This document shows, piece after piece, positions 53,781 to 61,152 of a stretch of 61,152 bases of DNA. The translations under genes and the position numbers were made by a program. A model generated the notes under the pieces. The model saw only the letters and a program-made list of their open reading frames with translations, did no database searches and was not told where the DNA came from. Within the stretch, counting starts at the first letter, position 1. The number at the start of each line of letters is the position of its first letter. This DNA comes from Cochliopodium minus (taxonomy: Eukaryota; Discosea; Himatismenida; Cochliopodiidae), in assembly GCA_024220525.1 (NCBI GenBank), contig JAMYWO010000085.1:1-61152 (forward strand), in the 5' to 3' direction.

Positions 53781-54586
53781 ATGAACAAATTTTTCAAAAA
53801 AACAATTAAATTGCCCTTCAATACTTTGAAATGCAACATCAAATCTTCAAAATTACTTCATACATGCAAATCATCCAAAATTTTTAAATATTCACCTTTA
53901 TGTTTTTCTGCGATTTCTTTTGGATTGATTTATTCTTTGAATTACAGCAAAGAGGAATTCAAATGTGTTGAAAATAAGAACAGGAGAGATGGAATGATGA
54001 TAAAGATGGGATTTTTTGATAATTATTTCAATGATATAAACAATGATGCAAGTATTTTCAAACACATAAGCTTGATTTACTTTATATTAATTCAAAATTA
54101 TTGTTTTAGAAAGTATTATTGGAACAATATAAAGGAAAAATAATTATATTTGTAAATATAGTTACACAAGCACCTGAATCGAGGGATAATCTTATCAAAT
54201 TACAAAACCTATACGAACAATATAAAGATTATATCGTGATCTTTGCTTTCCCATCACAAGATATCACTCCCCTTTATGAATTAAAAACAAATGAACAAAT
54301 AAGCAATGAATTGAAGATGTTAGGCATCACATTTCCTGTATTTCCATTGACAACTTTATCTGGAGAGAAAATCCATCCAATTATTGACTGGCTATGCAAA
54401 GTATTGTTCTTGGAGAAACAAGAGCGTGTTCCTATTGTTTTCTTCAAGAAGATAAAATCACAGGAGATCTCCAATAATTTTGAGAAATTTTTGATCGATC
54501 AATATGGAAATCCAATTAGAAGATTCGATCAAACATTCGATATAGACAATTTCAAAGACTATATTCATCAACTTTTGATCAATTAA
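53781..54586 (+). CDS. glutathione-peroxidase-fold protein lacking the catalytic cysteine
   Basis: Predicted 247-aa protein, two exons: 53781-54051 and 54114-54586. The N-terminus (MNKFFKKTIKLPFNTLKCNI) is Arg-poor but Lys-rich and amphipathic, followed by a hydrophobic helix (SPLCFSAISFGLIYSL), suggesting a mitochondrial or membrane-anchored protein. The thioredoxin-like fold of glutathione peroxidases is recognisable: YKGKIIIFVNIVTQ, LYEQYKDYIVIFAFPSQDI, GITFPVFP, FEKFLIDQYGNPIRRFDQT. The active-site (Sec/Cys)-G-x-T after VN(V/I)(A/V) is replaced by QAPES, and the Trp before FEKFL is Asn. The catalytic tetrad is thus largely lost; a pseudoenzyme or divergent function is inferred. The acceptor AAAG|TA at 54112-54113 gives the only in-phase join. 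Confidence 0.7.
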
Positions 54587-54713: not shown

Positions 54714-55273
54714 ATGGATATGTAATTTGTTTTCTTTTACCTCTTTGAGGTAATTTTTGATCATTTTCAATTCAGATTTGCAGTAGATATAAACAAAAAT
54801 TGTCCTCATATGTTGTTGGATAAACATTTCATTCAAATTAGTAAAGAGGAGAACCTCATCGATCTTAAATGTGAGAAATGCAATGATAAAAGCGAAAATT
54901 GGGTATGTTTAAAATGTCATAAGGTATTCTGTTCAAGGTAAATAAAATTGTGAAAGAAAAATATTTAACTGAAAAATTATATCCTCTCAATAAAAATCCA
55001 TAATTTGAAAAAAGATATGTGAATGGAGATTTCAAAGACCATTATGAAAATGATAAATCACATTGTCTTGGAATATCATTTTCAGATTTATCAGTATGGT
55101 GCAATGAATGTGAATCAGTAAAAAGAAATTTTAAAGATAAAAATTTAAGTGACTTGTTTTTTTTTATTAAGTATATTGACGGACCCAAATTGGGAAACTC
55201 TCTCCAAAATATTTCTAACAAATTAGAAGAAAGAAAGAAAGTTCAAAAAGGAAAAATAACCTCAAAATACTGA
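54714..55273 (+). CDS. stand-alone UBP-type zinc finger protein
   Basis: Predicted 124-aa protein, exons 54714-54721 (8 nt, MD + split codon), 54776-54937, 55015-55117 and 55172-55273. It carries the zf-UBP fold of HDAC6/USP5, which binds the free C-terminal Gly-Gly of ubiquitin: [57 protein letters not shown]. The Arg-Tyr of CSRY and Trp of SVWC, key pocket residues, are kept. The Tyr of the usual WCY is Asn. The tail SYIDGPKLGNSLQNIS is shared with the PARG fusion next door, of which this is a tandem paralog without the glycohydrolase. The 54-bp third intron is stop-free and a multiple of three, so its retention would add 18 residues. Function: ubiquitin-tail binding, inferred. Confidence 0.8.
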
Positions 55274-55686: not shown

Positions 55687-58600
55687 ATGGATTTGTATCC
55701 TTTCATATCCTTATTTATCCTTTCATTTAATTTGCATTAAAAATAGTTTTGCAGTAGAACCAATTGGAAATTGTCCTCATATGTTGTTGGATGACCATTT
55801 CATCGAATTAGGACCAGAGATAGACCTTATAGATCTTCCATGTGAGAAATGCAATGATAAAAGCGAAAATTGGGTATGCTTAAAATGTCATAAGGTATTC
55901 TGTTCAAGGTAAATAAAATTATGAAAGAAAAATATTTAACTGAAAAATTATATCCTCTCAATAAAAATCCATAATTTGAAAAAAGATATGTGAATGGAGA
56001 TTTCAAAGACCATTATCAAAATGATAAATCACATTGTCTTGGAATATCATTTTCAGATTTATCAGTATGGTGTAATGAATGTGAATCGGTAAAAAAAATT
56101 TTAAAAAAATTAAATAATCAAAATTAAAAAAAAATTAAAAAAATTGAAAATTTTTTTATTTTAAAAAAGTACATCAAAGGACCAAAACTTGCCAATTCTC
56201 TCAAAAATATTTCCAAAAATAAATTCAATGAGAAAAAGGAAGTGAAAGAGGGAAAAAAGGAGACACTGGATAAAAAAGTCATACTTCCTACTCAAACCGA
56301 GAATTGGCCAAGAGTCAAGGAGCTATTAAAACAAAAATACGAAAATATGAATCAACTATCGGTAAAATTTTTTTTTATTTTTAAAAATTTATTTTTTATT
56401 AAATTTTTAAAAAATTTTATTTTTATTTTTTAGTTTTTAAAATTTTTATCATTATTTATTATTTTATTTTCATTTTATTTTTATTTTTAGTTTTTAAAAT
56501 TTTTTATTTACTTTTTATTTTATTTTTATTCTTTAGATGGCCATTGAAGAAATTGAAAATTTTGGAAACAGACAAAAGTTAACGGTTTCGGGGAGCAGGT
56601 ACTGCAAGTTTGTTGAGCAATCCGAGCAGCCTTTGTTTTTTTCGGAAACTCTTCCATTTATTCAACAACTTAGTTTGGAAATAGAAGATGCATTTCCTAA
56701 TGGTAATTCACATTTTTTGGTTTTTTTATTTTTTTATTTTGTTATAAAAATCTTTTATTTTATTTTATTTTTTGGTTTTTGTTTTTTGTTTTTTGTTTTT
56801 TGTTTTTTGTTTTTTGTTTTGCTATTAAGATCTTTTATCTTATTTTATTTTTAGTTTACATTTTTATTTTTATTTTAATTATTATTTTTCCGATCAAAAG
56901 TATTTTTAATCCCCATTTTTATTGATATTTTTTTTTATCATTTTAAATTTTTTGATTTTGATTTATTTTTTATTTTAAATTTGAAATATATTCTAATTTA
57001 ATTTGCTTTATTTTTTATTTTTTATCAAAAATTTTTTTTTTCATCTTATTTATTTTTCATTTTTTTTTTAGTTATTATTTTCTTGAAATTTTTTAAATTA
57101 TAATTTTATTATTTAAAATTATAATTATTAATTTAATTAAATTTTTTTTAATTTTTTAGGAATCCCTTTGTTTTTGAGTGACAAAGAATATGAAATTTCG
57201 TTCACAAAAAGACAAGTTGCAATTCTTTTAGCCAACGCATTTTTCGGGACCTTCAACTTGGTGAATCCTCATACCCTCTCTGACTTACAATTTCCTGATT
57301 TTGATTTCAGAGGTGTCAGATATTCCCCTTCTTCTCCCATCAAATGTATTTTGCATTATTTTTCGAGAATTCAAAAACAAAGTAAAAATTTTTTTTTATT
57401 TTATATTATTTGCTTACATTTTTGTTATATTAAACTTCTTAATTTTTTTTTCTCTTTTTAAAGAAAATTATGATTTATTATGTTTGAACAAGTTTAAATA
57501 TTGGAGATAATAATTAATTATTTTATTTTTTTTAAATTTATTTTTAATTTTTTATTTATTTTATTATTTTTTATTTTTTATTTTTTATTTTTTATTTTTT
57601 ATTTTTTATTTTATTTTTATTTTTTATTTTTTTCTCATTATTTTATTGTCATTTTCTATGATAAAAAATTATGATATTCATTTAATTATTTTTTACCTAT
57701 TATTAAAAAAAAATTATGATTTATTTGTTTTAATAAAATTTTCTATACTAATTATTATTTATTTATTTAATTTTTCTATTATTATCATTATTTTTTTTTT
57801 ATAATATTTTTTTTTAAATTAATTTCTTTTTTTTTTTTCTTAAAAAGTGCCCACGGGATTTTTGAAAGTGGAAAGAAAAATGGTGACTCAGAAAGAGCTA
57901 CCAAACTGGAAAAAAAGCAAAACCCCACTTTCAAAAGTGGTCCTTCATCCAACCCAACTCATTGAAGATTTAGAAGAAGGACTTCACGCTGATTTCGCCA
58001 ACGAAGTATTTTATTTTTATTTTATTTTTTTTATTTTTTAATTTTTTACGTAGAATTATTTCATTAATTTTTTAATTTTATTTCTTTGAATAAAATTTAG
58101 TATATTGGTAAGTTTTAGAATTTTTTTTTTTATTCTATGTCAAATTTAAACTATATTGAAAGGTGGAGGTAAAATTTTTTAAACTTCAATTTATTCTTTA
58201 TTTTTAAAATTGTTTTATTATTTTAATTATATTTTTATTTTTTATAATTATTTTTATTTTTTATTTTTGTTTTTGTTTTTGTTTTTATTTTTATTTTTAT
58301 CATGTTATTTTTTCTTTTTTTTTTATTTTTAAAAAATTATTTGATTATTTTTTTTTTAAAAAGGTGTACTTACAGGAGGAAACGTTCAGGAAGAAATTTT
58401 GTTCGTGGTGAAACCAGAGTGTTTGGTTACTCTTCTTTTTTGTGCCAAAATGGAATTGAACGAATCCATCATCATTAGTGGTGCCGAAAGATTTTCCAAG
58501 TATACTGGATATGGGGGTGGTTGGAAATTTAATGGTGATTTTGTTGGTAAAAATTTTTTTTTAAATTAATAAATTATAATAAAAAAAAAGTTTAATTTAA

Positions 58601-59658
58601 AAAATGTTATTGAAAAAATTTTAAAAATTTAATTTTAAAAATTTTTTTAAATAATAAAAATTTGATTAAAAATAAAAGTTTAATTTTAAAAATTAAATTT
58701 AAATAATTTAAAAAATTTGATTAAAAATAAAAGTTTAATAAAAAATAAAAATTTAATAAAAAGAAAAGTTCAATTTTAAAAATTATTAAATAATAATTTT
58801 AAAATTTAAAAATTAAAAATTTAAAATTTCATCATATGTGAAAAAATTAAATTTATATAAAATCATAAATTTTTAAATTAAAATGTAGAATTATTTTCTT
58901 TCATTTTTTTTTTTTGGGTAGATAAATCAAAGAGGGATTCAACAGATTCAATCATCACGAAGATCATCGCAATAGATGCCACTGTTTGCTTTGGGAACAA
59001 CGAGCAATACACCACTACTTTCGAAAGGGATTTGATAAAATGTTTTGTTGGTTTCAGAAATTATTCAAAACAGAACGACAAAGGAGGTAAAATAATTATT
59101 TTTTAATTATTTTTTCTAATTTTTTTAATTATTTTATTTTTATTTTTATTTTATTTTCATTTTATTTTTAATAATTATTTTTATTTTTATTTTTATTTTT
59201 ATTTTTATTTTTATTTTTATTTATAATTTTTAATTTTTTAATAATTATTTTTATATTTTTTTTATTTTTTTTTTAATTAATATAAAAAAAAAAAAAAGAG
59301 TTTGAAGAAAATCTACCTGCAATAACCGGAAATTGGGGTTGTGGTGCTTTTGGGGGAAACAAAGAATTGAAGTTTTTTCAACAACTTCTTGTTATTTCCG
59401 AAACAGGAAGAGACTTGCACTATTGTCCATTGTCCGAGCCTTTTAGTGGTAATATTTTACTCATTTTTTTTTTTTTTAAATTTTTTAATCATTTTTGTTT
59501 TAAAATTAGAAACATTCACAAAGTTTATTGAAGAAGTAAAAGGTGCTTCTGTTTCAGATTTGTACAACATTTACAAAAAGGGAATCAAAGAAGGAAAGAT
59601 TCCTTGCCAAAAATTATTGGAATACATTTCAAACCAATACACAAACAATAAAAAATAA
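55687..59658 (+). CDS. PARG: UBP zinc finger fused to poly(ADP-ribose) glycohydrolase
   Basis: Predicted 556-aa protein, thirteen exons, phases consistent: 55687-55694, 55747-55908, 55986-56088, 56170-56361, 56537-56702, 57160-57381, 57848-58005, 58101-58107, 58163-58168, 58364-58546, 58922-59086, 59299-59448 and 59510-59658. Residues 10-91 are a zf-UBP: C12/H14, C35/C38, WVCLKC, C55SRY58, SVWC86NEC89. Residues ~150-556 are a macrodomain-type PARG that cuts ribose-ribose bonds of poly(ADP-ribose). Visible: an N-terminal accessory region ([30 protein letters not shown]), [20 protein letters not shown] with catalytic E351/E352, [37 protein letters not shown] and a C-terminal EYISNQY. A charged linker (~105-155) joins the halves. 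The zinc finger suggests recruitment to free or ADP-ribosylated ubiquitin; this is inference. Confidence 0.9.
58101..58107 (+). other. 7-nt coding microexon of PARG
   Basis: TATATTG between acceptor AG (58099-58100) and donor GTAAGT (58108). It encodes Tyr-Ile and the first base of the first Gly of the catalytic loop. Skipping it removes conserved residues and shifts the frame. Confidence 0.8.
58163..58168 (+). other. 6-nt coding microexon of PARG
   Basis: GTGGAG between acceptor AG (58161-58162) and donor GTAAAA (58169). It supplies the middle of the catalytic GGG. The introns on either side are 55 and 195 nt. Being 6 nt, it could be skipped in frame, which would delete two glycines and presumably kill catalysis. 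Confidence 0.8.
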
Positions 59659-59726: not shown

Positions 59727-61041
59727 TCAATTTAAATTTGGTTTTAATTTTCCCAGTTGACTCAACGTTTTTATTATCCATAATGAGACGTCCACAGATT
59801 TGTTTCGGTTAGTTTTTACCCACTCTTCCTCACAAAGCTCGACACTAGTTAACCTTTCCTCTGGATTTTTTTGGAGACTAAGAAAAAAATAAAAAAATTA
59901 AAAAAATTAAAAAATAAAATTAAAAAAATTATAAAAAATAAATTAAAAATTAACAAAATTTTTTTTACCATTTATTGATAAAATTAGAGAAAGAAGGAGA
60001 ATAAGATGAGGATTCTTCCAAGGAGGGAGGCGACTCGTTGCAAATTTTCTGCCACAATGCCCAATACCCCGAAGGAATTTTCTCACCCTCTTTGATATAA
60101 GGATATCTCCCAATAGCACACTCTAATAATGTTAATCCATAACTCCTAAAAATTTTTTTATTTTTATTTTTTATTTTTTATTTATTATTTTTTATTTTTT
60201 ATTTTATTTTATTTTATTTTTTATTTGGTTTTATTATTTTTTATTTGGTTTTATTATTTTTTATTTCTTTTTTTTATTTTAGTAAAAATTTATTTTTTAT
60301 ATTTTTTATATTTATTCTTTATTTTATATTTTTTTTACCAAATATCACTATTAGATGAATGACCCTTTCCCATGATGCGTTCAGGGCTCATATAAAAAGA
60401 CGTTCCAATAAATGATTTCACTTGTCCTAAATATTTTTTTATTTATTCAGTTTTTATTTTTTTTATTTTTTTTATTTTTTTTTAGTTTATTTAGTTTTTT
60501 AGTTTTTATTTTTTTTAGTTTTTTAGTTTTTTTAGTTTTATTTTTTTATTTTTTTTTTTACCAATGGTGTCTATTAGTTTTCCACTCACCCCAAAATCAG
60601 ATATTTTAATTTCTCCTTGCGAATTTATCAACAAATTTGATGCTGATAAATCAAAATTAAATAAATTTTTTTAAAAAATATTAATAAAAAAATTAATTTT
60701 AAAAAAATAAAAAATTAAAAATTTAAAATAAAAATTAAAAAATTAAAAGATTTAAAATAAAAAATATAAAAAATTAAAAAAATTAATTTTAAAAAGTTTT
60801 TTTTTGAAATTTTCACGTTTTATGTCTCTATGAACAATATGTAGTATTTTATGAATATATACAAGACCATCCAAAATCTATTTGTTTTTACAAATAAAAA
60901 AATTGATAGAACCAAAAATAAAAAAAAATTTTTTTTTTATTTTTTTGATTTTTACTTGAATGGACATTGAAGTCAGAATGTCTTCAGGAATGGTTTTCAC
61001 TTCTTTCAAAATATCCGCCAGTGTCCCCATATCCATTAATT
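59727..61041 (-). CDS. MAP kinase kinase-type protein kinase, C-terminal part (5' partial at window edge)
   Basis: About 214 residues of a STE-group kinase in six exons: 61041-60956, 60877-60817, 60642-60562, 60426-60339, 60145-59969 and 59877-59727. Motifs in order: [15 protein letters not shown] (hinge and helix D), [31 protein letters not shown] (catalytic loop, split after Lys), [18 protein letters not shown] (DFG), [14 protein letters not shown] (activation segment and APE-equivalent SPE), [41 protein letters not shown] and [11 protein letters not shown] are typical of MAP2Ks. Activation-loop phospho-site candidates are the Ser/Thr in KSFIGTS. A short extension after the kinase core ends at 59727. 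The N-lobe with the ATP-binding loop lies beyond the window. Confidence 0.92.
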
Positions 61042-61075
61042 CTGTTAAAAAAAAATTTTTTATTTTTATTTTTTG

Positions 61076-61152
61076 TTTTTATTTTATTTTTATTTTTATT
61101 TTTATTTTTATTTTTATTTTTATTTTTATTTTTATTTTTATTTTTATTTTTA
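61076..61152. repeat. T5A low-complexity tract at right window edge
   Basis: Almost pure TTTTTA-like repeat inside the intron upstream of the last visible MAP2K exon; the same composition as the left edge. Confidence 0.8.

Follow-up and report, generated by a model that had tools for sequence, protein, structure and literature searches.

Links between ubiquitin and ADP-ribose have been described mostly for writers and readers, among them Deltex and RING-UIM ligases, WWE domains and PARPs carrying UIM or UBA domains, as far as the accessible portions of three papers go (PMC4245714, PMC11668277, PMC13061329). Poly(ADP-ribose) glycohydrolases (PARGs) with additional domains are also on record. 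The available part of a survey of PARG architectures lists a PBZ domain in Adineta vaga, a Nab2-type finger in Entamoeba dispar, and G8, transmembrane and Ribosomal_L32e additions (PMC4245714). The main text of a review on (ADP-ribosyl)hydrolases contains neither ‘zinc finger’ nor ‘ZnF’ (PMC7050489). The finger considered here is related to that of HDAC6, which binds a free C-terminal diglycine. One HDAC6–ligand structure shows the carboxylate in contact with Gly1154, Tyr1184 and Arg1155, and the accessible part of that report also mentions the making of an R1155A-Y1184A double mutant (PMC10424181). In another partly available report, an R1155A-Y1156A mutant lost binding to RLRGG (PMC12000391).

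The locus described here lies in a window of 61,152 nt (24% G+C) on contig C85 of the 44.65-Mb, 598-contig genome of Cochliopodium minus; the window is the whole stretch of DNA that was analysed. Positions 55687-59658 of the + strand can be rebuilt into a gene of 13 exons and 12 introns, all GT..AG, whose 1671 nt end in a TAA at 59658 and encode 556 residues in one open frame. G+C content is 28-42% in the ten exons longer than 100 nt, compared with 2-23% in the 12 introns. Three Pfam domains are recognized in the spliced product: zf-UBP at residues 35-97 (E 1.6e-16, 60.8 bits against a cut-off of 22.7, profile positions 1-62 of 63), PARG_cat_N at residues 182-294 (E 4.4e-24, 85.4 bits, cut-off 25.6) and PARG_cat_C at residues 303-503 (E 3.3e-63, 213.5 bits, cut-off 26.3). 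An original prediction of a 13-exon frame uniting zf-UBP with a full PARG core is thus borne out by the rebuilt model, its GT..AG introns and the three Pfam domains, and all the finger and PARG motifs that it quoted are present in the spliced product. The fusion follows the plan of the surveyed PARGs, a PARG with an added domain, but none of the additions listed in the available part of that survey is a zf-UBP (PMC4245714). This agrees with the same prediction's statement that no such fusion had been described. The zf-UBP–PARG join may therefore be new, as judged from the literature rather than from eukaryotic protein databases. We assign a probability of roughly 0.5 to the reading that a single gene joins an HDAC6-type zf-UBP finger to a complete PARG and addresses the enzyme to the free tails of proteins, above all ubiquitin ends.

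The finger occupies exon 2 (first half; 55747..55908), assigned from Pfam and HDAC6 alignments, and exon 3 (second half, ..VWCNECES; 55986..56088), for which pairwise alignments were used as well. The inferred start codon is in exon 1 (55687..55694), an 8-nt exon in frame with exon 2 across a 52-nt GT..AG intron. Exon 4 (56170..56361) bridges the two modules, with the tail helix of the finger module followed by the first PARG helix. Exon 5 (56537..56702) opens with an ATG and aligns with the N-terminal helical region of PDB PARGs. Exon 6 (57160..57381) matches the PARG_cat_N profile, and exon 7 (57848..58005) holds the end of PARG_cat_N and the start of the macrodomain (HADFANE), by Pfam and PDB PARG alignments. 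Two inferred micro-exons, exon 8 (7 nt; 58101..58107) and exon 9 (6 nt; 58163..58168), fall inside the PARG catalytic loop, which runs on into exon 10 (58364..58546) together with the YTGY hairpin. Exon 11 (58922..59086) matches the PARG_cat_C profile, and exon 12 (59299..59448) carries the diphosphate loop NWGCGAFGG; exons 10 and 12 were both assigned by Pfam and PDB PARG alignments. Exon 13 (59510..59658) supplies the PARG C-terminus and the TAA in the gene model. Exons 1, 8 and 9 are placed by frame and splice signals only, and the position of exon 8 is ambiguous because its 7-mer occurs twice nearby. A second, stand-alone zf-UBP gene sits just upstream at 54714-55273 (+), with four exons, 124 amino acids, a TGA end and a Pfam zf-UBP match of E 1e-17. 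Its introns lie in the same three places as those of the fusion's finger, and it shares the 8-nt exon 1.

The enzymatic half resembles canonical PARGs (for example PDB 8adj, 6oak and 4epp; species Drosophila, human and Tetrahymena) in its PARG_cat_N and PARG_cat_C domains and in its GGG-X7-QEE and GCGAFGG loops. The PARG signature GGG-X6-8-QEE, with both catalytic Glu, is present in the spliced fusion, its first glycines depending on the inferred micro-exons 8 and 9. The definition of this loop and the catalytic and ligand positions were taken from the accessible part of a published analysis (PMC3897571). Nine of the 11 catalytic and ligand positions named there are kept, measured against a PDB chain taken to be human and given in mouse numbering. 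Among the ligand residues (mouse Thr718, Ile719, Glu720, Asn733, Tyr785, Tyr788, Asn862, Phe868 and Phe895), seven of nine are retained. Thr718 and Phe895, the latter being the adenine-stacking Phe, are both Leu; these two residues and the N-terminal finger set the fusion apart from canonical PARGs. Two paralogs in the same genome keep the Phe, as read by eye. From the kept catalytic residues we infer that the fusion is able to cleave poly(ADP-ribose). PARG matches were found at five loci in the genome: the window, C11, C31 and two on C50. Profile searches of C11, C31 and C50 returned no zf-UBP match, although such searches could overlook a finger divided among small exons. By eye, no finger was seen in the frames listed ahead of the PARG parts at three of these four loci; the fourth has an unreadable N-terminus, given as N. 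A scan of viral contigs with the fusion as query gave no relative.

The best PDB match of the fusion finger is the HDAC6 finger 5g0f (E 3.8e-21), and other HDAC6 chains score 2.1e-19 or better. With residue equivalents numbered by script on pairwise alignments, four of the five HDAC6 pocket residues are kept (Arg1155, Tyr1156, Trp1182 and Tyr1189). The fifth, Tyr1184, is Asn, so that the pocket is not retained in full. Eleven of the 12 zinc ligands of HDAC6 are likewise kept. The exception is His1160, presumably a zinc ligand although a literature search turned up no support for this, which is Asp in the fusion. The fusion further differs from HDAC6 in that its enzyme is a PARG and its finger is N-terminal. 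Both substitutions recur in the tandem copy, whereas the finger of a sirtuin encoded on contig C26 of this genome has Tyr and His at these positions; the equivalent of Gly1154 is Ser in the fusion and sirtuin fingers alike. The finger had been called intact, which holds for its CSRY, SVWC and CxxC motifs and fails at the equivalents of Tyr1184 and His1160. As a family member the finger would be expected to read free tails, an expectation weakened by these two changes.

A possible alternative, which we rate below even odds, is that the fusion is real and its finger no longer reads ubiquitin tails, acting instead as a structural or docking module or as a reader of some other tail. The presence of both substitutions in the two window copies, set against the retained Tyr and His of the sirtuin finger, points this way. 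So do zf-UBP matches in two of 14 prokaryotic control genomes, which show that this fold need not go together with ubiquitin. The four retained pocket residues, however, speak for continued tail reading, and Asp can in principle bind zinc. In addition, dN/dS between the two finger copies is ∼0.34 over 124 codons, a value that suggests constraint but mixes a near-identical tract with diverged ends.

If tail reading is retained, the finger would dock the PARG onto free C-terminal tails, foremost those of unanchored or freshly trimmed ubiquitin chains, as its family suggests. Poly(ADP-ribose) would then be cleared where ubiquitin ends are exposed, such as aggregates and stress or damage foci, in parallel with HDAC6, which brings a deacetylase to such sites. 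The genome offers both partners for this scheme. It contains polyubiquitin genes, of which the one examined (L070, C96:122500-124200) has units ending in RLRGG, and it yields 23 PARP-domain matches, a tally of exon matches rather than of genes. An eraser with a built-in ubiquitin-type reader would be a testable case of ubiquitin-directed poly(ADP-ribose) removal. As a separate observation, the L070 polyubiquitin contains the stretch VEGSDSIQNVKQKI, which looks unusual. The Deltex DTC domain has no match in the genome, but it has none in the controls either, so that this negative carries no weight.

Action on ADP-ribosylated ubiquitin had also been proposed for this protein, an idea that is weakly supported at best. 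In current descriptions of the C-terminal mark, ubiquitin is attached to the O3′ of ADP-ribose, and the HDAC6 type of finger binds a free diglycine, whose carboxylate is esterified in the mark; action on C-terminally ADP-ribosylated ubiquitin is thus unlikely, going by the available parts of both sources (PMC11668277, PMC10424181). Ubiquitin with ADP-ribose on its C-terminus was accordingly set low as a substrate, mainly since its tail is blocked. PARG is reported, in two 2024 titles, to reverse Glu/Asp-linked and Tyr-linked ADP-ribose, and these titles weaken a further, older argument, namely that the protein-proximal bond is beyond the reach of PARG. That limit on PARG is given in the accessible text of the 2014 survey (PMC4245714). 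In the available portion of another study, PARG was among the enzymes made and was active on PAR; by the wording, it apparently did not reverse ADPr-Ub and is mentioned as a control for this lack of reversal (PMC13061329). Recruitment of the fusion to ubiquitin-rich sites is plausible, with one carboxylate-contacting residue of the predicted reader changed.

The finger has kin elsewhere in the genome, where zf-UBP gave at least 11 matches at at least nine loci on eight contigs, two of these loci being in the window. In a tblastn comparison with 11 loci, the closest finger found was that on C26 (E ∼5e-24 when queried with the fusion). Next among the finger loci came that on C17, at E 0.001 with the fusion and 2.3e-5 when the tandem copy was used instead. 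The C26 locus (L035; C26:88000-93000, - strand) encodes a SIRT6/7-like sirtuin whose N-terminal part carries an HDAC6-type finger; Pfam SIR2 and zf-UBP both match the locus. Among the best 60 of 109 matches it hits sirtuin-6 (E 4e-54) and sirtuin-7 (E 2e-53). The fusion finger is identical to the sirtuin finger at 54 of 104 aligned positions, while two HDAC6 fingers match it at 43 of 95 and at 41 of 100. The fusion and sirtuin fingers share a tail helix and a phase-0 intron placed one codon apart. The sirtuin differs from the fusion in its enzyme, which belongs to the NAD+-dependent deacylase family, in the kept Tyr1184 and His1160 equivalents, and in a possible A20 finger between zf-UBP and SIR2 (19.9 bits, below the cut-off of 21.6). 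SIR2 matches occur on eight contigs, C26 being the one that also holds a finger. Histone deacetylase matches (four contigs) and ARH-family matches (six contigs) were absent from the eight zf-UBP contigs. Beyond this genome, Dictyostelium Sir2A carries a zf-UBP finger. A cloning primer printed in one paper translates to MYAVNPI, which resembles AVEPI of the fusion; the main text of that paper lacks ‘zinc’, ‘UBP’ and ‘ubiquitin’ (PMC6475656). A review of parasite sirtuins does not mention a zinc finger, UBP or ubiquitin (PMC3484402).

Because a sirtuin encoded in this genome bears a kin finger, the fusion's finger looks like a swapped module, one that may have spread by duplication and exon fusion. 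A zf-UBP finger joined to an ARH3-like protein in Capsaspora owczarzaki likewise places this finger family on a family of ADP-ribose-removing enzymes. The Capsaspora protein has an ARH fold and no PARG macrodomain; known from the text and a figure legend of the survey, in the part available, it suggests that the pairing also arose with an unrelated hydrolase fold (PMC4245714). A broader and more tentative idea, which we would not yet favour, is that a single HDAC6-type ubiquitin-tail finger serves in this lineage as an address label that can be swapped between NAD+-signalling enzymes (the SIRT6/7-like sirtuin and the PARG), with the free-standing finger gene competing with or tuning the PARG. 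Were this so, the genome would encode a connection by which exposed ubiquitin ends direct the removal of both poly(ADP-ribose) and acyl groups.

All of these readings take finger and PARG to be one gene, a point on which exon 4 bears. The boundary between the finger module and PARG falls inside this exon. The first part of the exon recurs in the tandem finger copy and is similar to the tail of the sirtuin's finger; the final 20 residues are similar, with modest significance, to the helix that opens PARG. Compared singly, the helix is not significant: the score was reached by 898 of 2000 shuffles against human PARG and by 278, 1497 and 295 of 2000 against the paralogs on C11, C50 and C31, respectively. 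When the register was fixed and human PARG and the C11 and C50 paralogs were taken jointly, the score was reached by 22 of 200000 shuffles. This figure flatters, because both the register and the choice of these three targets followed from the single-comparison results and the C31 paralog, which aligned elsewhere, was left out. Of 45 registers tried, the chosen one scores 66 and the runner-up 15. In the PDB search, 14 of 15 PARG alignments start within exon 4, many of them to identical or almost identical proteins. Because the finger module ends in exon 4 and a PARG-like first helix follows there, the exon argues for one gene. At the level of sequence, the single-gene fusion that had been predicted is supported by this bridging exon together with the splice sites and the open frame.

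A split into two neighbouring genes, namely a further stand-alone finger and a PARG that starts at the exon 5 ATG (56537) or within exon 4, is in our estimate quite unlikely. Such an arrangement would find a precedent in the stand-alone finger gene with its own stop just upstream and a possible start in the ATG that opens exon 5, and it would sit well with the lack of significance of the exon-4 helix in single comparisons. Against it, exon 4 ends in that PARG-like helix and has no stop after the finger in the finger's frame. Of 20000 mononucleotide shuffles of the exon, 110 are equally open, yet a 192-nt open frame is not rare at this G+C once coding sequence is counted: 228 of 1331 window stretches of like G+C, coding stretches included, are open in one frame. 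The introns flanking exon 4 measure 81 and 175 nt, at 5% G+C, compared with the 413 nt that by coordinates separate the two finger genes.

An assembly artefact joining a finger copy to a PARG gene is very improbable: a near-identical tract in the tandem copies (54870-55117; five of 248 nt differ) is a repeat able to mislead assembly, but the copies diverge outside it (64 of 82 nt agree at 54800-54881, the last 12 of the 82 belonging to the tract, and in exon 4 the initial 51 nt agree at 37 positions), and both parts are in frame within exon 4 itself. Since the five differences span a tract that includes intron 2 (76 of 77 nt identical), gene conversion between the tandem finger and the fusion copy is suggested. 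Upstream of the finger pair, an open frame at 54110-54586 (+) appears by eye to encode a glutathione peroxidase or another thioredoxin-fold protein. Downstream of the fusion, open frames at about 59727-61151 (-) look by eye like protein kinase exons (KISDFGVSG).
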